This document shows, in pieces, positions 8,651 through 17,467 of a stretch of DNA of 20,141 bases (position 1 is the first letter of the stretch; every line of letters begins with the position of its first letter). Origin of the DNA: a virus. Made by a program: the position numbers and the translations under genes. The DNA is taken from positions 1 to 20,141 of the IMG/VR virus record IMGVR_UViG_3300043449_000676. One strand, written 5' to 3'. The notes below the pieces were generated by a model, which saw only the letters and a program-made list of their open reading frames with translations, did not search any database and was not told where the DNA came from.

Positions 8651-10123
8651 TCAAGTGTAGGCGTACGAGGACTTTTTCACCTCGCGCTTACCCGTCTGCA
8701 GCCCAGCCCCTCTGAGGTTCATGTCGATTACTGAGTCGGCGTACTGGTTGGCATCGTGGACGTGGGAGAACTGATTCTTGTCCGGCTTGTCTTCCATCTC
8801 GCCGCTTTTCTTGATTTTGTACCGATACCCGTACCGGAACCCCTTGACCAGCTGTGTGCATCGCGGGTCGATCACGTACATCGCCTTACCTTCCAACTGC
8901 TGTACAAGCAAGCGCTCGACAGCCTGTATGCGCTTCTCCGGGTCGTTTGACGGCGGCTTGACGCACTTGAACCCCGCCTGCCTAACAATATCCACCAGCG
9001 ACATCTCACCTTGCTGCTGCTTGGCGTACCCGGCTGGGTCCGGAGCCACGAGGAACGTACAGCCCTGCAGGTTATTGGCCACGTACGGATTCAGTTTCGT
9101 CCGCAGGAATGTCTCTATGCCCATGTTCTCTGACGTCAGCTCACCAAGAGTAACTACGCGCCCGCGTGGATCACGCTGTTTGAACACTGCTGCAGGCGTA
9201 CGACCAAAGTCCAGCCCGATGATCACTGGGTAGTCTTGGCTCTTGATCGCCTTGAGCGGCTCCTTGGACACGTGGAAATCGTGTGTGTATGTCTTCTCGT
9301 ACACCGGGGTGCCCGACAGACTGCGGCCATACTCCGACCGCAGGTACACACGCAGCCAGTCTTCTGTCTTGCCGGGGATGATGTTCGGGTAGTACTGCTT
9401 GGGCAGGTGGTTGTAGTTGTCGCACTCTGGGTTTACCGTCCACTCGTTCTCGTCCTTGTCCAGCAGGATTTCTTCAGGCTCTTCACCAAACCGTTCAAGG
9501 TACACCTCGGGCTTGATGATCGCCGCTGGCTGCTTGTGCACGGCCCAGTTCGACGGCGGGTTCTCCATCTTGTCGTGCCACCATGTGTCCTCGTCTGGCA
9601 TGTTGGTATCGAACAGCGCACATGAGCGCGTAGGCCCACCATCTTTAGCAGACGGGTATCGGTTCAGACGCGACAGCAGGCCATCCACAACCTCACTGTT
9701 GAGCTCTCGGCTCTCGTTGCCCCACAAGAACGTAGTCTCCAACGACAACGCTTTACGCACGTCATCTGGCGTATCCAATGGGATGAAAATCCACTCCGAC
9801 TCTACCTGTGTGCCGTCTGGCAGCTTGGCCATGAGTATGAACGTCTTCTCCACAGCCTTCCAGATACCCGCCTCTCCCGGGGGCAGCCAGTCGAACACCG
9901 TCTTCCTTGTAGTCAGAGCCAGCTGGTCCGCCGTGTTACGCACAATGATCGCCCGAGTCTTGCGGATACCTTTGGCGTTCGGCTTCTGGCCACAGCATAG
10001 ACGCACCAGCTCATGTACACACGTAACGGACTTACCGCCGCCGACCGGCCCTGCCAACACGCGTACGTAGGATTCGTCCAGCATGAAATTCCGCTGGGTC
10101 TCGGTGGGTTTGTATGCGCTCAT
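8651..10123 (-). CDS. terL: Terminase large subunit, 490 aa
   Basis: The DNA-packaging motor and headful or site-specific nuclease. The ATG at 10123 overlaps the previous stop as ATGA and has an AGGA site 7 nt upstream, so it is preferred over the longer reading at 10156. ATPase domain: Walker A GPVGGGKS at residues 25-32 and a Walker B-like TFLWGNESRE at 131-140 with E137 as likely catalytic Glu. Nuclease domain of RNase H type: IIGLDFGRTPAAVF (D305), FLVAPDPAGY (D362) and HDANQYADSVID (D457, D463) supply the acidic metal ligands. The length is normal for the family. It lies beside the probable small subunit, zinc-ribbon gene and portal. Confidence 0.95.
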   Translation of the reverse strand: MSAYKPTETQRNFMLDESYVRVLAGPVGGGKSVTCVHELVRLCCGQKPNAKGIRKTRAIIVRNTADQLALTTRKTVFDWLPPGEAGIWKAVEKTFILMAKLPDGTQVESEWIFIPLDTPDDVRKALSLETTFLWGNESRELNSEVVDGLLSRLNRYPSAKDGGPTRSCALFDTNMPDEDTWWHDKMENPPSNWAVHKQPAAIIKPEVYLERFGEEPEEILLDKDENEWTVNPECDNYNHLPKQYYPNIIPGKTEDWLRVYLRSEYGRSLSGTPVYEKTYTHDFHVSKEPLKAIKSQDYPVIIGLDFGRTPAAVFKQRDPRGRVVTLGELTSENMGIETFLRTKLNPYVANNLQGCTFLVAPDPAGYAKQQQGEMSLVDIVRQAGFKCVKPPSNDPEKRIQAVERLLVQQLEGKAMYVIDPRCTQLVKGFRYGYRYKIKKSGEMEDKPDKNQFSHVHDANQYADSVIDMNLRGAGLQTGKREVKKSSYAYT

Positions 10124-10566: not shown

Positions 10567-11079
10567 TCACTTGATCTCCTTGACCTCTGTGTCCAGTGTA
10601 ACGGGTGTAAGTCCCTGCTGGTTGCTCAGGCTGACGCTGTGCCCACCGCCCAAGTCGATACTGATCGTGAACCCCGGCCCGACATCCTTGGCCCGTTCTT
10701 CTTTCGGCTCAAGCCCCGCAGCTTTGATCAGCGTCTTCAGCACGTCGTGCTTCTGATTCAGGCTGGCATCCGACCCTGACGCTTGTACGTACACCTGATC
10801 GAGCAACTCACCGGCCATCCATGCCGCTTTGGCTTTGAACGTGATGCCGTTTTTCTCGTACTCAGATCGCTTGACCTGAACCTGCAGCTGGAACCAAGGC
10901 TGGGCCTCCAGTTCTCGGAATTTCTCGACGCTCAGGCCATGACGTGCTGCCACGACAAGCTCATCCTCCATGCCAAGTGCAATAGAAGACACCATCTCAT
11001 CACTGATCTGCGGAAACGAGACGGTCGAGGGCTTGTAGTCCAACGGTACGTCGTCCAAGGAGTAGTCATCAAGCGACAT
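10567..11079 (-). CDS. terS: Probable terminase small subunit, 170 aa
   Basis: The ATG at 11079 (MSLDDYSLDDVPLDY) has GGAGG 6 nt upstream and overlaps the end of the regulator gene by 11 nt; the longer reading from 11154 would run far inside that gene. Residues about 30-120 are helical with HGLSVEKFRELEAQPWFQLQV and KAAWMAGELLDQVYVQA, then LNQKHDVLKTLIKAAGLEPKEE. This layout, a helix-turn-helix-like segment with an oligomerisation helix, matches small terminase proteins I recall from podoviruses. The C-terminal tail is Gly/Ser-rich and beta-prone. The name rests on position (two small genes before the large subunit) and architecture. Confidence 0.6.
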   Translation of the reverse strand: MSLDDYSLDDVPLDYKPSTVSFPQISDEMVSSIALGMEDELVVAARHGLSVEKFRELEAQPWFQLQVQVKRSEYEKNGITFKAKAAWMAGELLDQVYVQASGSDASLNQKHDVLKTLIKAAGLEPKEERAKDVGPGFTISIDLGGGHSVSLSNQQGLTPVTLDTEVKEIK

Positions 11080-11239
11080 TTGCGGCCTCCGCCAAGCGTT
11101 TTTCATGTGCTTCCACTGCTTGCAGATACTTTTCCAAGGCAATTCTGACCACATCAGCAGCTGGAACGCGCTTTTTTGCGGCCAATTTCTTGGTTTTTTC
11201 CAGCAGTTCGTCGTCTAAAAACAGGTTCCATCGCTTCAT
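11069..11239 (-). CDS. Ribbon-helix-helix-like regulator, 56 aa
   Basis: A 56-residue protein from the ATG at 11239 (MKRWNLFLDDELLEKTKKLA), with AAAGGA before it; the longer reading at 11269 begins inside the upstream palindrome and is rejected. The pattern is a short basic beta strand (KRWNLFL), helix A (DDELLEKTKKLAAKK), a turn and helix B (ADVVRIALEKYLQAVEAHEKR). This is the MetJ/Arc ribbon-helix-helix plan, which forms dimers that bind short inverted or repeated sites in the major groove. It is first in the packaging operon. A perfect palindrome, GTGTGTATACACAC, lies 17 bp upstream, so autoregulation is likely but not shown. Confidence 0.7.
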   Translation of the reverse strand: MKRWNLFLDDELLEKTKKLAAKKRVPAADVVRIALEKYLQAVEAHEKRLAEAANVA

Positions 11240-11255
11240 TTTTGGTCCTTTTTTG

Positions 11256-11269
11256 GTGTGTATACACAC
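11256..11269. promoter_or_regulatory. Perfect 14-bp palindrome GTGTGTATACACAC (candidate operator)
   Basis: The palindrome lies just upstream of the regulator gene. On the minus strand its core TATACA could serve as a -10 box with TTAAAA 18 bp upstream, so a protein bound here would block transcription. An identical copy occurs at 12907-12920, and half-sites are spread over 11.35-16.65 kb. Confidence 0.6.
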
Positions 11270-11395
11270 ATTTTAGGGGTTTTTTTAATTTTTTGGGGCG
11301 ATTTTATGGGGTGGCGGGGATAATTTTAGTACTTTTGGGTACGAAATAACGTGTGTATGTCGTTAATTTTGGTCATGCTGAGTCTGGCAGTCGTA

Positions 11396-12503: not shown

Positions 12504-12659
12504 ATGAAACCCAACCAAAACCAGCACCTGATTGAGGCATACATTGATTACATGAATGCCTTAGATATGTGCCGCCGTGGAATTATAGGTAACGCCAATT
12601 TTCAGCGGGAGCACCTTCGCACCATATATCGCATCATTACGGGAAAGGAACTGTCATGA
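12504..12659 (+). CDS. Hypothetical 51-aa protein
   Basis: The ATG at 12504 follows an excellent AAAGGAG site with 5 nt spacing, so the upstream in-frame start at 12477 (inside the hairpin) is not used. It is 51 residues, predominantly helical: HLIEAYIDYMNALDMCRRG, then REHLRTIYRIITGKELS. No family or motif is recognised. The stop overlaps the next start as ATGA. Confidence 0.65.
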   Translation: MKPNQNQHLIEAYIDYMNALDMCRRGIIGNANFQREHLRTIYRIITGKELS

Positions 12660-12904
12660 GTCGAGTTCATCTAGTCCACGCTGGGGCCATGGCCAAACAC
12701 CACACCAGCCCAACACCAGCCAAGCCCGTGCCCCTATACACACCAACACGTGTCGGGTATGCGAGTCGTCAGGCCAAGTCCACTGGCGGCCAAGCCTTTG
12801 TTTACGAGGCCGCAAAATCCACGGGCTTCAGATACCCCAAGCTTTCCCCAAGCGAATCGGGCACGGGCTTTTGGCACGAGCGCAGCTCCAAGCCACGCGG
12901 ATAA
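12656..12904 (+). CDS. Hypothetical basic 82-aa protein
   Basis: An 82-residue protein whose ATG overlaps the previous stop (ATGA). It is basic, rich in Pro, Ser, Thr and His, and looks disordered (HHTSPTPAKPVPLYTPTRVG, YPKLSPSESGTGFWHERSS). The TATACACAC motif lies in its coding sequence (read as YTP). No domain is recognised. It is the last gene before the non-coding stretch at 12905-13431. The coupling to its neighbour is the main evidence that it is translated. Confidence 0.55.
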   Translation: MSRVHLVHAGAMAKHHTSPTPAKPVPLYTPTRVGYASRQAKSTGGQAFVYEAAKSTGFRYPKLSPSESGTGFWHERSSKPRG

Positions 12905-12906
12905 AT

Positions 12907-12920
12907 GTGTGTATACACAC
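12907..12920. promoter_or_regulatory. Second copy of palindrome GTGTGTATACACAC
   Basis: Identical over all 14 bases to the palindrome before the ribbon-helix-helix gene, and placed 3 bp after the stop of the 82-residue gene. It is the likely second operator of the same DNA-binding protein. Confidence 0.6.
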
Positions 12921-12945
12921 TAGGCCTCCATGTTTCGCTGCATCT

Positions 12946-12966
12946 ACTCCTGCCTACGGCAGGAGT
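12946..12966. other. Strong 9-bp hairpin
   Basis: A perfect stem ACTCCTGCC/GGCAGGAGT with a TAC loop. No T-run follows in either direction, so it does not look like a standard terminator. It is followed by a smaller hairpin ATGGC/GCCAT at 12972-12986. Confidence 0.65.
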
Positions 12967-13008
12967 GTAACATGGCTTTAGGCCATTGAACATACACACG
13001 TTCAAATA

Positions 13009-13050
13009 ATCCAAGCTTTTTGGCTTGGATAGTAGACTTGGATTTCTACT
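13009..13050. other. Two adjacent hairpins near the iterons
   Basis: First stem ATCCAAGC/GCTTGGAT (13009-13030) with loop TTTTTG; second stem AGTAGA/TCTACT (13031-13050) followed by TTTT. Both carry the ATCCAA/TTGGAT sequence that also ends the iterons. The second could act as a weak terminator for rightward transcription. Confidence 0.5.
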
Positions 13051-13081
13051 TTTCCTTTAGAATCAATAGGTTAGGTAGTCG

Positions 13082-13107
13082 AATAATCCAATAATCCAAT
13101 AATCCAA
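13082..13107. repeat. Three tandem AATAATCC iterons
   Basis: Three exact 8-bp copies lie back to back at 13082, 13090 and 13098. A fourth (AATAATCCAAG) is at 13005. The last 18 bases of the array are the exact inverted complement of 13222-13239. Confidence 0.85.
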
Positions 13108-13221
13108 GTTTTTAAGAGAATTTGTACTATAGAAATGTTGTCATGGACGTGAGGGCCTGCGGCGCGACCAAATCACCGCAAAAAACTAGACCCTAAAAAT
13201 CCCTCTGACCCTCCAGAAATT

Positions 13222-13239
13222 TTGGATTATTGGATTATT
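13222..13239. repeat. Inverted copy of the iterons (18 bp)
   Basis: TTGGATTATTGGATTATT is the perfect reverse complement of 13090-13107, 114 bp away. It could form a large stem-loop or position protein dimers on both sides of the intervening DNA. Confidence 0.85.
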
Positions 13240-13296
13240 CACATAGGGTAAACCCTAATACACCTCTGCAAGCCCCTATCCATGCGGGTTTCAGAG

Positions 13297-13694
13297 CATA
13301 CACACCTTGGACCCTACTATCCAAGCCCCTGCCATTTTGTCTTTTAGCCCGACAATTTTGGATTTCAGCAAGCATACACACGTGGCCGTTCCCTCAAAGA
13401 ACATACACATACACACCAACGAAAGCAAGTCATGGCACATACACACCAACACTTCGTATACACATACACACCTGATGGAGGCATGGACGACGACCCCGTC
13501 GTGGTGGACACGTATACACATACACACCTCAATCCCTTTGAGTCAGACGACCCAGAGGTGGCTTACCATGAGTATCTTGCTGAGCGGTTCAGCAGATAAC
13601 GTATACATACACACCAAGGAGAACACCATGTCACCTGAAGACATTGAACTTCTACGCAAGCTGTGCGCCATGCACAATGCACGTACATACACAC
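13297..13694 (+). repeat. Cluster of CATACACAC motifs
   Basis: Exact CATACACAC copies start at 13297, 13373, 13408, 13438, 13463, 13519, 13606 and 13686, all on the plus strand, usually followed by C then A or T. A longer 19-base copy, CGTATACACATACACACCT, occurs at 13455-13473 and again at 13511-13529. Further copies lie at 12735 (TATACACAC), 12991 and 16642, and one on the minus strand at 11351-11359. They fall in genes and between genes alike. Confidence 0.9.
13432..13599 (+). CDS. Possible 55-aa His/Asp-rich protein containing the repeat motif
   Basis: A 55-residue frame starting MAHTHQHFVYTYTPDGG and ending YHEYLAERFSR. Its start is supported by the 20-base leader CCAACGAAAGCAAGTCATGG, which matches the leader of the gene at 11928 at 18 of 20 positions. 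The composition is strange: about half the residues come from three copies of the CATACACAC motif (read as HTH or TYTP), between acidic segments (MDDDPVVVD, FESDDPEVA). Either a real small protein has absorbed the DNA motif, or the frame is partly incidental. No family is recognised. Confidence 0.45.
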   Translation: MAHTHQHFVYTYTPDGGMDDDPVVVDTYTHTHLNPFESDDPEVAYHEYLAERFSR

Positions 13695-13807
13695 CCGAGT
13701 TCATGGAGAGCTGCTCGTACCTCGTGAAGAAGTACCCGGATAGAACCGAGGACGACCACGCCTTATGGCGTGACGCAGTGGCTGAGGCCAAGAAGGAGCC
13801 GACATGA
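13628..13807 (+). CDS. Hypothetical 59-aa protein, first of the coupled gene run
   Basis: The ATG at 13628 follows AAGGAG at good spacing; the upstream frame to 13307 is non-coding repeat. The product is 59 residues, helical and charged: MSPEDIELLRKLCAMHNAR, then ESCSYLVKKYPDRTEDDHAL and WRDAVAEAKKEPT. A CATACACAC copy at 13686 is read as TYTP. The stop overlaps the next start (ATGA). No family recognised. Confidence 0.65.
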   Translation: MSPEDIELLRKLCAMHNARTYTPEFMESCSYLVKKYPDRTEDDHALWRDAVAEAKKEPT

Positions 13808-13944
13808 CAGTAACTCAGACGTTCCTCATCTTCGCCATCGCAATCATGGCCCCACACGTACCGGAGTACGACGCCAAGCTGTTAAGTATTGGTTGCACCC
13901 TAATCGCCGTAGTGTTTTACATCATCGAATGGAAACTCAAATGA
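13804..13944 (+). CDS. Small two-helix membrane protein, 46 aa
   Basis: A 46-residue protein with two hydrophobic stretches: residues 5-16 (QTFLIFAIAIMA), then a short polar loop with His, Glu, Tyr and Asp, then 27-42 (LSIGCTLIAVVFYII), ending in EWKLK. It looks like a two-pass inner-membrane protein. Both ends are fixed by ATGA overlaps. Small holin-like proteins have this shape, but no endolysin is nearby, so lysis is not claimed. Confidence 0.65.
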   Translation: MTVTQTFLIFAIAIMAPHVPEYDAKLLSIGCTLIAVVFYIIEWKLK

Positions 13945-14126
13945 CAGACAAAACAATCACCGTCCGAATCAAGGACGTGTATGGCGTGGCCAAGGTATAC
14001 CCGGTGTGTAAGACAGCACAGCTGTTCGCAGCACTCACTGGCACCACCACGCTGAGGCCCCAAGACCTTGAGATCATCAAGAAGCTTGGGTACACCACCA
14101 CAATTCAACAACGGGAGCTGGCATGA
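13941..14126 (+). CDS. Hypothetical 61-aa protein
   Basis: A 61-residue soluble protein starting MTDKTITVRIKDVYGVAKVY. Two beta strands are followed by helical segments (CKTAQLFAALTG, PQDLEIIKKLGY), then TTTIQQRELA. This beta-hairpin plus helix arrangement could be a small DNA- or protein-binding fold, but no motif identifies it. It is joined to both neighbours by ATGA overlaps. Confidence 0.65.
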   Translation: MTDKTITVRIKDVYGVAKVYPVCKTAQLFAALTGTTTLRPQDLEIIKKLGYTTTIQQRELA

Positions 14127-14305
14127 AACCTTGCTGCAATGGAGACTGTGACCAAGGGCGTAACTGCCCACACAGAAACAATGCCATGTCAATTGGAGAT
14201 GTGGCATTCACGGTGGTCATGATGATCATCACACTGGCAATCGGTGTATCCCTGATGTGGTGGGTAATAACCGCAGTGGCCCTATTAATGGAGAGCCTGA
14301 TATGA
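14123..14305 (+). CDS. Small Cys-rich membrane protein, 60 aa
   Basis: A 60-residue protein. The N-terminus carries four cysteines (MKPCCNGDCDQGRNCPHRNN), a signature I recall from small phage and prophage membrane proteins (CxGxCxQGRxC). Residues 27-57 are strongly hydrophobic (FTVVMMIITLAIGVSLMWWV then ITAVALLM), enough for one long or two short membrane helices. The ATG in the overlap is used; an inner Met at 22 would drop the Cys region. Function unknown. Confidence 0.65.
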   Translation: MKPCCNGDCDQGRNCPHRNNAMSIGDVAFTVVMMIITLAIGVSLMWWVITAVALLMESLI

Positions 14306-14535
14306 CAATCACTGTTAGCGTGGACATAGATGATGTCCTAGAGCAGATCGAAGATGAAGACTTGGTAGCCGAGGTGGAGGAGCGTGGCCTGAAGATCGGC
14401 ACCAACTACCTGTCCAAGGAAGACGCACTGGAGCGCCTAGAGCGCATACACCACCTGATGCGCATGAAACAGCCCAAGCAAGCGTACAAACTGATGTACG
14501 ACTACGTCAGAGACGCACTTGGGAAAGCCATATGA
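14302..14535 (+). CDS. Acidic helical hypothetical protein, 77 aa
   Basis: A 77-residue protein beginning MTITVSVDIDDVLEQIEDED. The start at the ATGA overlap is chosen over an in-frame upstream start at 14257. The sequence is acidic, with helical segments DLVAEVEERG, KEDALERLERIHHLMRMKQP and AYKLMYDYVRDALG. It ends DALGKAI, and its last bases (GGGAAAGCCATATGACCAC) closely match the junction between the next two genes, suggesting duplicated gene ends. No recognised domain. Confidence 0.65.
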   Translation: MTITVSVDIDDVLEQIEDEDLVAEVEERGLKIGTNYLSKEDALERLERIHHLMRMKQPKQAYKLMYDYVRDALGKAI

Positions 14536-14840
14536 CCACGCCAGACCCGACCCCAATGGACGCGGACTACTACCCACGTATAAAGTTCAACAGGCGTTGG
14601 TATCTGGTAGTGCCTGAACTCAATGGAGAAAACCCGCATGAAGGGTGTGCGTTCTACTGCCCGGTCTCTAAGAACGGCGCGTGCAGTCTCATAACAGAAG
14701 CTGGGGGTGACTCAGGTAAGGTAACTCTGTTTAATCGAGTGAACTGCGGTAAGGAGGGAGTGATATTCGTTGCACCGTCCAAGTTCCCCGAGTACCGAGC
14801 CCACCTCGTGGTTGAGAAACTGGAGGGTAAAGCCATATGA
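14532..14840 (+). CDS. Cys-containing small protein, KLEG array gene 1 (family A), 102 aa
   Basis: A 102-residue protein. The core after KFNRRWYLVVPELNG has cysteines at GCAFYC, GAC and NC, followed by GVIFVAP and a helix ending VVEKLEGKAI. This order (aromatic strand, Cys-x-x-Phe/Cys pair, more Cys, hydrophobic IF strand, C-terminal helix) is shared with the genes at 15079, 15297 and 16061. It looks like a small zinc- or disulfide-stabilised fold of unknown function, resembling a Cys-containing family found across phage genomes (memory). The 3' end carries AAACTGGAGGG, which is also the ribosome site of the next gene. Confidence 0.65.
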   Translation: MTTPDPTPMDADYYPRIKFNRRWYLVVPELNGENPHEGCAFYCPVSKNGACSLITEAGGDSGKVTLFNRVNCGKEGVIFVAPSKFPEYRAHLVVEKLEGKAI

Positions 14841-15082
14841 CCACCGAGTGGGTACTTAACACTGGCCTGAGCTATACGGAATCAATGGAGTTCTTCGACC
14901 TGTTCGTGGATGGGCGCTATGCTCAATCCATTTGGATTGAGCATGACGTAGGCAGTGATGTGTGGCAGTTCGTGTCGCCGCGTCCCCATTACCGTTCACC
15001 ATTCTTTAAATCCATGGAGGAGGCCAAAGAGCACCTGACCACATTCAACGTCATCAACAAACTGGAGGGTAAAGCCATATGA
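14837..15082 (+). CDS. Beta-plus-helix small protein, KLEG array gene 2 (family B), 81 aa
   Basis: An 81-residue protein beginning MTTEWVLNTGL. Aromatic beta strands (FFDLFVDGRYAQSIWIEHDV, DVWQFVSPRP) are followed by a C-terminal helix FFKSMEEAKEHLTTFNVINKLEG, ending KAI. The helix motif (F/L)xxLxxAKxxxxxxxVxxKLEG is shared with the genes at 15616, 15852 and 16303 and, without KLEG, 18493 and 18786. Translation starts inside ATGA after a GGAGGG site carried by the previous gene. Function unknown; the conserved fold suggests a small binding module. Confidence 0.65.
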   Translation: MTTEWVLNTGLSYTESMEFFDLFVDGRYAQSIWIEHDVGSDVWQFVSPRPHYRSPFFKSMEEAKEHLTTFNVINKLEGKAI

Positions 15083-15300
15083 AACACTACTCCCCCGGTG
15101 ACACGTTCACCAAGGACAGCTACGAGTTCGTCGCAATAGAAGACGACGAAGATAATGGTTGCATGCTCTGCGTTGGTGGTGGTAATCACTCTATATGCAA
15201 CATGATGCCGCGTGGCTGTGGCCGAGATGGTATTGCGTGGCAACCAGCAAATGACGAAGCCCTTGCGCTAGTCATAGCAAAAAAACTGGAGGGTGTGTGA
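15079..15300 (+). CDS. Cys-rich small protein, KLEG array gene 3 (family A), 73 aa
   Basis: A 73-residue protein beginning MKHYSPGDTFTKDSYEFVAI. Its four main cysteines occur as NGCMLCVGGG, SIC and RGCGRDG, followed by GIAWQP and a C-terminal helix DEALALVIAKKLEGV. The Cys spacing resembles the other family A members more than any enzyme I know; a metal-binding or structural role is possible. The stop overlaps the GTG of the next gene. Confidence 0.65.
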   Translation: MKHYSPGDTFTKDSYEFVAIEDDEDNGCMLCVGGGNHSICNMMPRGCGRDGIAWQPANDEALALVIAKKLEGV

Positions 15301-15533
15301 ACATCAAACTCGACCCTACCAAGCGACTACGCCAACACCCAGATGACCCCAACGTGTGGGAGTACGACGTCGTTTACATACGAGCTATGTTCCCGAACAC
15401 GCCGTGTCGTGGCTGCCAGAACCACCATAGCGAGACGCACTGCGAAGACATACTAATGGATCGGCAGTGCGCCATCACCACTGTGTGGTATGGCGAACAC
15501 ATTGAGATAGCAAACAAACTGGAGGGTGTATGA
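15297..15533 (+). CDS. Cys-rich small protein, KLEG array gene 4 (family A), 78 aa
   Basis: Starts at a GTG inside the GTGA overlap, the only non-ATG start in the run; the GGAGGG site sits 3 nt upstream. The 78-residue product begins MNIKLDPTKRLRQHP and has CRGCQNHH, HCED and QCAITT, with histidines near the cysteines. That favours zinc binding over disulfides. It ends HIEIANKLEGV. Function unknown. Confidence 0.65.
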   Translation: MNIKLDPTKRLRQHPDDPNVWEYDVVYIRAMFPNTPCRGCQNHHSETHCEDILMDRQCAITTVWYGEHIEIANKLEGV

Positions 15534-15619
15534 AGAAACGATTGATCGTACTGATAGCCGCGTACATCGCAGGCTTTGCCATTCTGTTCATGGACATGAT
15601 GGTGTGGAGGCCGGGATGA
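15530..15619 (+). CDS. Single-pass membrane microprotein, 29 aa
   Basis: A 29-residue peptide, MKKRLIVLIAAYIAGFAIL then FMDMMVWRPG: positively charged N-terminus, one hydrophobic helix, short polar tail. It looks like a small inner-membrane peptide. It is real in context because both ends are ATGA overlaps, its ribosome site is the AAACTGGAGGG repeat, and removing it would leave an 80-bp hole in an otherwise unbroken run. Function unknown. Confidence 0.6.
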   Translation: MKKRLIVLIAAYIAGFAILFMDMMVWRPG

Positions 15620-15855
15620 AGTGGACTGACGACTACATAAGCACCGAGATGCGTTACCGCTGGCATGACCTGATGGATGGTGACGGTGAAGATACTGATG
15701 GCCTGCTTGGGTACGTACGAGAAGACATCATCGACCACACCTTTGTCTCAGTCATCAACGCCCATGGTGGCCCATCAAAGAAGTTCGACAACCTCAAAGA
15801 CGCCAAGGCTCACATCATTACCTACTACGTATTACAAAAACTGGAGGGCGCATGA
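15616..15855 (+). CDS. Beta-plus-helix small protein, KLEG array gene 5 (family B), 79 aa
   Basis: A 79-residue protein beginning MKWTDDYISTEMRYRWHDL. The longer reading from 15526 runs through the microprotein and is rejected. Charged strands (TDGLLGYVREDIIDHTFVSV) are followed by the family helix KKFDNLKDAKAHIITYYVLQ, ending KLEGA. Shared helix and ending with the genes at 14837 and 15852; function unknown. Confidence 0.65.
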   Translation: MKWTDDYISTEMRYRWHDLMDGDGEDTDGLLGYVREDIIDHTFVSVINAHGGPSKKFDNLKDAKAHIITYYVLQKLEGA

Positions 15856-16064
15856 TATGGATACCACTTAGTAGTAGCGGCTCGAGCTGGTGGCTGCAAA
15901 GTGACGAAGGCATAACGCAAGGTTATGTCATCAAGATCAAAGGTCAGTACCTGCCACGCCTCATGGGCGGTGGAGAAGGTGTGCGCCCGCATCTTGACAC
16001 GCTCGAAGCGGCACAAGAGCGGGTCTTGGTCTTGCTGGCTGAAAGAAAACTGGAGGGCACATGA
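15852..16064 (+). CDS. Beta-plus-helix small protein, KLEG array gene 6 (family B), 70 aa
   Basis: A 70-residue protein beginning MIWIPLSSSGSSWWLQSDEG, then strands QGYVIKIKGQYLPRLMG and the C-terminal helix LDTLEAAQERVLVLLAER, ending KLEGT. It is the shortest family member; the Gly-rich middle is a loop. It is joined on both sides by ATGA overlaps. Confidence 0.65.
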   Translation: MIWIPLSSSGSSWWLQSDEGITQGYVIKIKGQYLPRLMGGGEGVRPHLDTLEAAQERVLVLLAERKLEGT

Positions 16065-16306
16065 GAACTAAGATCAGAGTCAACGACAAATGGTACAAGC
16101 CTGTGCCATGGCATGTAGATGGCGAATGCGATGGCTGCGTGTTCGATGGTGACGGCAGCGCAAACGTGTCTGGTAAGTTCGCCGGGCTGTGCGATCCCGA
16201 CTGTGAGTTCGGGGGGATGATCTTCATCCACAACACCAAAGAATCCTTGGCCAAGTACGTGGCCAAAAGACTCGAAGGTAACCAAGAGTATGAGGAGGAC
16301 ACATGA
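16061..16306 (+). CDS. Cys-rich small protein, KLEG array gene 7 (family A), 81 aa
   Basis: An 81-residue protein beginning MRTKIRVNDKWYKPVPWHVD. The core ECDGCVFDGDG, LCDPDCEFGGMIFI is the clearest family A signature: CxxCxF, then CxxxC, then an IF strand. It ends with helix KESLAKYVAKRLEG, extended by NQEYEEDT because the next start lies farther downstream. I recall similar Cys-x-x-Cys-x-Phe proteins in many phage genomes without known function. Confidence 0.65.
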   Translation: MRTKIRVNDKWYKPVPWHVDGECDGCVFDGDGSANVSGKFAGLCDPDCEFGGMIFIHNTKESLAKYVAKRLEGNQEYEEDT

Positions 16307-16617
16307 CATTCACATGGGAAGGCGGGACGCATGAGGACGGCACATACGCATACCTCCGCTGCCACTTAAACAACTCCATCCTAGTCATGGCCAAAGACTG
16401 GGGCTGTGGCAGAAGCCCCTTGGTGATCAACCAAGTGGGCTACGTCCAAGTCAATGCGCATCCTGTAACTAAGTATGGAAGCTTTCATGCAAACCTGTAT
16501 AGCAGCGTATCCGATGCAATGCCAAGGTCGTTCCGCACACTGGAAGAGGCCAAGCAGTACGTGGAAGACAACGCCACCACAGGGCTGGTGCTCAAGAAGT
16601 TACACATCGACGTGTGA
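16303..16617 (+). CDS. Beta-plus-helix small protein, last of the coupled run (family B), 104 aa
   Basis: A 104-residue protein beginning MTFTWEGGTHEDGTYAYLRC. Several beta strands (NNSILVMAKDWGC, GYVQVNAHPVTK, FHANLYSSVS) precede the helix SFRTLEEAKQYVEDNATTGLVLKKLHIDV. The helix matches family B, but the KLEG tail is absent, as is a following overlapping gene. This supports the idea that KLEG exists to supply the next ribosome site. It closes the run. Confidence 0.65.
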   Translation: MTFTWEGGTHEDGTYAYLRCHLNNSILVMAKDWGCGRSPLVINQVGYVQVNAHPVTKYGSFHANLYSSVSDAMPRSFRTLEEAKQYVEDNATTGLVLKKLHIDV

Positions 16618-16855
16618 CCGTGTAAGCGTCAAGTAAGACGACATACACACAATAAGAATTCAGATTCGGCTACCCCATCGTTCAGACGTCACGCATGGGG
16701 GCAGGCATCCAGACGTTACACAACTATCTTTCAACACACAAGGAAATCAAATGCGCTACAATAAAAATTCAACACGGGCTAGCTCGACGGAGCGAAAAGT
16801 GGAATAGACCACCACCTGCCTAGTGTTCCTCAAGGTCTGCGTCATCGAGGTCAAG
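16618..16855 (+). other. Intergenic region before the HNH gene
   Basis: The 238 bases contain one CATACACAC copy (16642-16650) and a hairpin CCCCATCG...CGCATGGGG (16673-16700). A possible 18-codon reading frame (16751-16807) begins MRYNKNSTRAS and has an AAGGAAA site. It could be a leader peptide, but the support is weak and I do not call it a gene. No clear promoter or terminator is seen. Confidence 0.5.
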
Positions 16856-17467
16856 ATGAAAACCTGCACTAAGTGCGGCTGTACAAAGCCGCTCTCTGAT
16901 TTCCACAAGTACGCCCAATCAAAAGATGGGCACAAACCTGCATGCAAGCAATGCAATACGGCAGCAGCTGTGGCGTATCAGTCAGCTAACACTGACTCAA
17001 GAAAAACCAAAGATGCGAGTTACCGCGCTAAGAACCTTGAGACTGTACGCATTTCATCTTTGGCGTATGCACATAGCAATGCAGGCAAACAGAAGTCAAA
17101 AGCTTGGAGGTCCGCAAACAAGCAGCCTATCAAGCTAAGGCACGATTTGTGGGTGCAAGAAAACAAAGACCGCGACAGAGAACACAAACGCAACTGGATG
17201 CAGCGTAACAAGGCGTACATGCTTGCAAAAGTCAGACACCGTCAGATGGTGGCACGCAGAGCAGAACCCCCATGGGCAGACGCAGCACTCATCAAGCTGC
17301 TATACACAACGCGCCAGTACATGACCGAGCAAACCGGTTTTGAATGGCATGTAGACCACGTTGTTCCACTTCAAGGACGCAATGTGTGTGGGCTCCACGT
17401 CCACTTCAATCTAAGAGTAATTCCCGCCATAGATAACCTGCGCAAGGGCAACAAGTTTTCAACCTAG
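16856..17467 (+). CDS. HNH endonuclease with N-terminal zinc finger, 203 aa
   Basis: The ATG at 16856 has GAGG 5 nt upstream; the longer reading from a GTG at 16823 has no site. Zinc finger: C4, C7, C30 and C33 (CTKCGCTK...CKQCN). A long basic helical middle (KAWRSANKQPIKLRH, RDREHKRNWMQRNKAYMLAK) probably contacts DNA. HNH nuclease motif: FEWHVDHVVPLQG (H165, D167, H168), then LHVHFNLRVIP (N185) and IDNLRKGNKF (N194, N199). This is the form of phage free-standing homing endonucleases: a mobile gene that cuts related genomes lacking it and spreads to them. It breaks the ATGA-coupled layout at this point. Confidence 0.85.
   Translation: MKTCTKCGCTKPLSDFHKYAQSKDGHKPACKQCNTAAAVAYQSANTDSRKTKDASYRAKNLETVRISSLAYAHSNAGKQKSKAWRSANKQPIKLRHDLWVQENKDRDREHKRNWMQRNKAYMLAKVRHRQMVARRAEPPWADAALIKLLYTTRQYMTEQTGFEWHVDHVVPLQGRNVCGLHVHFNLRVIPAIDNLRKGNKFST

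Follow-up and report, generated by a model that had tools for sequence, protein, structure and literature searches.

Arc of phage P22, a small ribbon-helix-helix (RHH) protein, is autoregulated from an operator at its own promoter. RHH proteins bind multiple operators cooperatively (PMC5569661). The archaeal virus RHH repressors SSV1 F55 and SIRV1 SvtR act on their own and on other promoters, F55 at tandem repeats and SvtR by cooperative spreading from strong to weak sites (PMC5569661). Arrays of short direct or inverted repeats are bound by the RHH proteins omega of pSM19035 and ParG of TP228 (PMC5016525). Cluster A mycobacteriophages carry 20–30 asymmetric sites oriented with transcription, some of which are operators while most are not associated with promoters (PMC6550527).

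The locus described here shares features with several of these systems. Like Cluster A phages (L5/Bxb1), it has small asymmetric sites lying along transcription, with promoter operators and many non-promoter sites, and the repressor and its sites have diverged in concert from lineage to lineage (PMC6550527). Unlike Cluster A, it encodes an RHH protein and not one of the L5 gp71 type, the mycobacteriophage repressor using a helix-turn-helix domain; its sites are packed into ca. 2 kb plus the RHH and ATPase promoters, rather than 20–30 being spread through the genome; and some lineages contain perfect palindromes. With P22 Arc and the repressors of PHROG 3180 it has in common a small RHH protein with an operator at its own promoter, although the protein is not specifically Arc by Pfam, the operator is a different one and a distant array is present. 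F55 and SvtR give a precedent for autoregulation and cooperative spreading by a viral RHH repressor, as predicted here, but come from archaeal viruses, recognise other motifs and have no described in-gene array (PMC5569661). CopG and pRN1 ORF56 are the closest solved structures by profile and fold and are also autoregulated, but in a plasmid replication setting. To our knowledge, no multi-site array is known for either. What is new, as read from the sequence, is an RHH-based set of asymmetric sites that point along transcription around a conserved non-coding element; the one literature collection searched held no text pairing stoperator with ribbon-helix-helix.

The motif and its array

The window, a virus record of 20,141 bases analysed as a whole, consists of leftward late genes (terS, terL, portal and others) and a rightward module, diverging near 11.3–11.9 kb. 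Relatives, located using the ATPase and small terminase as queries, retain this layout. In a megablast search the whole window matched no cultured phage, and the stretches examined of Rollin and RHph_TM3_14A, cultured phages whose terminase is related, showed neither an RHH protein, by pattern search, nor a motif cluster.

YATACACAC matches the window 17 times, compared with 0.26 expected from dinucleotide shuffles (the largest of 100 shuffles gave 2), and ATACACAC is the commonest 8-mer, with an expected count of 0.47 by a Markov-2 estimate. Twelve copies of ATACACAC are concentrated in the 1 kb between 12.7 and 13.7 kb and three in 11240–11380; outside 11.2–13.7 kb only 2 remain against 0.33 expected, which is near chance. 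A first-pass annotation had listed eleven plus-strand copies of YATACACAC (12735, 12991, 13297, 13373, 13408, 13438, 13463, 13519, 13606, 13686 and 16642), nine of them within about 700 bp, and two perfect palindromes at 11256 and 12907. All of these coordinates hold, the nine copies spanning 12991–13694 and the palindromes being 14-bp GTGTGTATACACAC at 11256–11269 and 12907–12920. Its single minus-strand copy at 11351 is also present, while a further one at 9283 had been missed. The sites outside the RHH promoter and the features around them are as follows.

9283..9291, minus strand: copy in the terL (large terminase) gene, probably a chance occurrence given the near-chance frequency outside the array
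12735..12743, plus strand: site TATACACAC, inside ORF 12656-12904 and kept in relative L164
12907..12920, unstranded: array site, perfect palindrome, immediately past the stop of ORF 12656-12904
12921..13431, unstranded: conserved non-coding element, candidate origin or leader
12991..12999, plus strand: array site at the left edge of the non-coding element
13297..13305, plus strand: array site beside the invariant CATGCGGGTT box, with syntenic counterparts in several divergent relatives
13373..13381, plus strand: array site
13402..13416, plus strand: array double site CATACACATACACAC
13432..13599, plus strand: small gene of 55 amino acids, hosting three site clusters
13438..13446, plus strand: array site inside ORF 13432-13599, read as HTH
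13455..13473, plus strand: array double site CGTATACACATACACACCT, inside ORF 13432-13599
13511..13529, plus strand: array double site, the same 19-mer in another frame, inside ORF 13432-13599
13602..13614, plus strand: array site, ATACATACACAC region, upstream of the Shine-Dalgarno sequence of the gene at 13628
13686..13694, plus strand: array site inside gene 13628-13807
16642..16650, plus strand: outlying site, separated in the window from the MoxR-type ATPase gene by an endonuclease gene

Most array sites do not lie at recognisable promoters, being located in leaders, gene gaps and coding sequence. Inside genes the motif is read as LYTP, HTH or TYTP with differing codon phases, the 13686 copy giving TYTP because its gene starts at 13628. 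The 19-mer CGTATACACATACACACCT is exact at both 13455 and 13511, and since the offset is 56 bases the two copies fall in two frames of ORF 13432-13599. These codon phases bear out the earlier reading that the DNA, rather than the peptide, is kept. Several relatives retain the C-terminus of the 13432-13599 product together with an internal site. An Rfam scan of the array gave no match there, and since the motif has palindromic versions and one site lies upstream of a promoter, a role at the RNA level was judged unlikely.

The RHH gene and its promoter

The same motif occurs at the promoter of a small regulator gene, which is the first gene before terS-terL and is directly followed by terS in nearly every relative.

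11069..11239, minus strand: RHH (Arc/CopG-like) regulator gene, 56 amino acids
11256..11269, unstranded: predicted proximal operator, perfect palindrome GTGTGTATACACAC; nearly all relatives have a palindrome or RCATACACAC
11270..11275, minus strand: −10-like box TAAAAT, flush upstream of the operator; RHH/late operon promoter
11351..11359, minus strand: distal site CATACACAC, upstream of the RHH promoter and pointing along RHH transcription; distal sites also occur in relatives

The product of 11239-11069 is predicted to belong to the RHH (MetJ/Arc/CopG) superfamily, having the N-terminal strand followed by two helices. It matches the PHROG 3180 'Arc-like repressor' family (E 1.5e-5), and RHH proteins of the relatives match Pfam RHH_5/RHH_1, with the window member just below the cut-off. 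Arc itself is matched in Pfam by one family member only (E 0.035), and an RHH profile search against structures matches CopG and ORF56. The AF2 model (pLDDT 93.5) has two high-confidence helices and a strand that is unpaired in the monomer; its best PDB neighbours are CopG/CopASO, none with E<0.001. A tblastn search with the RHH protein gave no match. Strand residues R3 and N5 are invariant across the RHH alignments.

Nearly all of more than 70 relatives have the RHH gene with sites in its promoter, usually two. The profile of 48 proximal sites consists of TANAAT at −12..−7, the operator from −6 and A-tracts at −31..−19. A sigma-70 scan of 10.8–17 kb predicted no promoters, though this comparative profile shows a −10 box. 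The operator is downstream of the −10 box and therefore in a repressor position, and its predicted overlap with the gene's own promoter is the mark of an autoregulated RHH repressor. Exceptions are L226, without a site in the 135 bases examined, and L205 and L219, with no typical site near the gene, that of L219 being farther upstream. In L169 and L210 the RHH gene was not found in a search covering ca. 100 bases upstream of terS.

Very probably the motif is what the small RHH protein of gene 11239-11069 binds, and we infer that this protein recognises the promoter and array sites alike. The proposal of a DNA-conserved array of protein-binding sites, read by the 56-residue regulator, gains support from the presence of the same sites at the RHH gene promoter in nearly all relatives.

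Conservation and direction of the sites

The relatives contain between 2 and about 14 motif copies at the same place. The motif is rare elsewhere in near-complete relatives, and at this place it is kept while the surrounding sequence changes faster, so that the two observations by which the first-pass annotation would have been overturned were not made. In 13 of 14 aligned pairs its substitution rate is 0 to 0.63 times that of the flanks, taken as the bases within 30 bp of a motif; in the 14th (L028/L032) the motif rate is lower by very little. Of the 16 copies of ATACACAC in G004, a record of 59.7 kb, 14 lie inside 1.9 kb. The 60 kb analysed of G006 contain exactly four, none of them outside this region, where the GC content is 60%. 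In some lineages a 60-kb genome carries six or seven perfect TGTGTATACACA palindromes grouped in 1.9 kb, and in L012, L013, L016, L044 and L046 perfect TGTGTATACACA palindromes occur both at the RHH promoter and in the array. The array of the window lineage looks like an expansion, because MRRRNLYI-type lineages have about two promoter sites and two array sites.

Promoter and array sites agree within lineages, rho being 0.68 for palindrome number and 0.46 for the C/T variant; both values ignore the kinship of the lineages. L216/L217 have ATACATA at both places. L218 has V in place of F in the RHH strand (RRWNMVF), and its promoter (L218:1-277) contains TACGTA-type elements, not the palindrome, beside one ATACACAC. 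A one-residue base code (F7Y changing CAC to CAT) was dropped, as MRRRNLYI proteins with Y7 use ATACACAC and L216/L217 combine F7 with ATACATA; no single-residue code accounts for the site variants.

Asymmetric promoter sites point leftward, toward the RHH gene, at 33:1, while asymmetric array sites, which take the form RC-ATACACAC, point rightward at 63:13 against a 56% background (P 7e-7; one genome per RHH lineage in both counts). Of the stoperator hallmarks, orientation is hence found at both places, whereas genome-wide spread and an L5 gp71-type repressor are not. Against a directional reading, orientation is undefined in palindrome lineages (e.g., L192), and the arrays of L172, L173, L201 and L236 are of mixed orientation. 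Outside the array, whole records follow no orientation rule, except that the intergenic ATPase site points along its gene; in several relatives a site lies ca. 100–130 bp upstream of the MoxR-type ATPase gene. A compact site pair, GTATACACACTGTGTATACAC, is located between convergent genes far from the array at G010:C1:52640-52661.

Proposed role and alternatives

It is reasonably likely that the RHH protein is an autoregulated repressor and, at the array, a silencer of rightward transcription. Bound to the operator, it would shut its own promoter, and transcription of the RHH gene and late operon would limit itself because the operator is flush against the −10 box. It would also bind the 12.9–13.7 kb array and, in a stoperator-like manner, block or terminate transcription running rightward across the non-coding element and the small genes that follow. 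By analogy, binding would repress transcription or silence elongation, and the direction of a site would matter mechanically. Since operators and directed sites match the Cluster A description and archaeal RHH proteins provide a precedent, a silencing repressor is favoured. Of the roles offered by the first-pass annotation (centromere, replication enhancer, silencer), the silencer is the best supported. Counting against silencing, the array genes showed no clear promoter, the sigma-70 scan being empty.

Replication control is the chief alternative, given that the array is arranged around a conserved non-coding element that carries iterons and invariant boxes. The array would then flank the phage origin, with the RHH protein adjusting initiation or transcription at the origin, as plasmid copy number is set by CopG and ORF56. 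The element, with RHH sites at its edges, is conserved across lineages; it contains 8-bp iterons AATAATCC at 13082-13107 with an inverted copy TTGGATTATTGGATTATT from 13222, inverted TTGGATTATT repeats, GGGTAAACCCT and the invariant CATGCGGGTT, and may from its sequence be the origin. The iteron varies by lineage (AATTATCC, AATTAGAC, ATTAATCC, AATATCC), so that the iterons seem to be a second repeat family diverging along with the phage. CopG and ORF56 are also closest to the RHH profile, and control of both copy number and its own promoter has been proposed for ORF56 (PMC3869888). Nevertheless we regard this alternative as rather unlikely: no initiator was identified, many sites lie past the element and within genes, and an orientation bias would not be predicted. 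The GC skew is ambiguous as to an origin, its turning points being placed only to within several kb and confounded by gene direction.

The remaining explanations carry less weight. Sites oriented with transcription and lying upstream of the RHH and ATPase genes would suit directional promoters for the late, array and ATPase genes, of which the motif would form part for a phage polymerase or an RHH activator. Such a role is improbable in view of the repressor position of the operator downstream of the −10 box, the perfect palindromes of some lineages and the sites within genes; no T7-type RNA polymerase was found, though the control search was also silent. A parS-like centromere of a plasmid-like prophage would combine an RHH protein with a repeat array as in pSM19035 and TP228 (PMC5016525). 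Unlike for omega and ParG, however, no ParA-type ATPase partner was found (AAA_31/ParA in 0/10 near-complete genomes, with the positive control matching 14/14), which makes a ParA-type centromere very unlikely, and the RHH gene adjoins the terminase and not an ATPase partner. An integrase was found in 1 of the 10 near-complete relatives. Coincidence, through codon usage or simple-sequence drift, can draw on the simple, AC-rich nature of the motif and on the microsatellite-like run ATACATAC in L010. It is hardly credible when only 0.26–0.47 copies are expected, and it is contradicted by conservation in relatives, the motif being syntenic in non-coding DNA and present in different frames.

Under the preferred silencing repressor, it may be ventured that stoperator-type silencing evolved a second time, independently, through an RHH repressor of uncultured ~60-kb phages with directional operators in genes and around the origin; lineages would have moved between palindromic and directional sites as repressor and sites co-diverged, possibly forming separate immunity groups. 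If the silencing reading is right, many-site directed silencing would occur beyond the mycobacteriophages and their kin. There would then be a compact natural set of about twenty related RHH proteins, each with its own array, that have diverged in specificity, site symmetry and site number, making it testable how RHH proteins switch specificity and why non-promoter repressor sites face along transcription.

Further features were observed elsewhere in the window. An int-alpA RNA (Rfam RF02996, 39.6 bits, above the gathering score) is located at 16772-16841 (plus strand), directly upstream of the endonuclease-VII/HNH-like gene 16856-17467 (plus strand), which separates the 16642 site from the ATPase gene; RNA and endonuclease gene may be one inserted unit, because three relatives scanned have no Rfam match. 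Between 14532 and 16306 there is a row of small overlapping genes with repeated C-termini (KLEGKAI, KLEGV or KLEGT), which arise because each gene's tail also encodes the ribosome-binding sequence (aaactggagggt..atg) of its successor. At 614-1330, close to the left end of the record, degenerate 21/42-base tandem repeats code a repetitive protein, the composition of which changes with the strand that is read.
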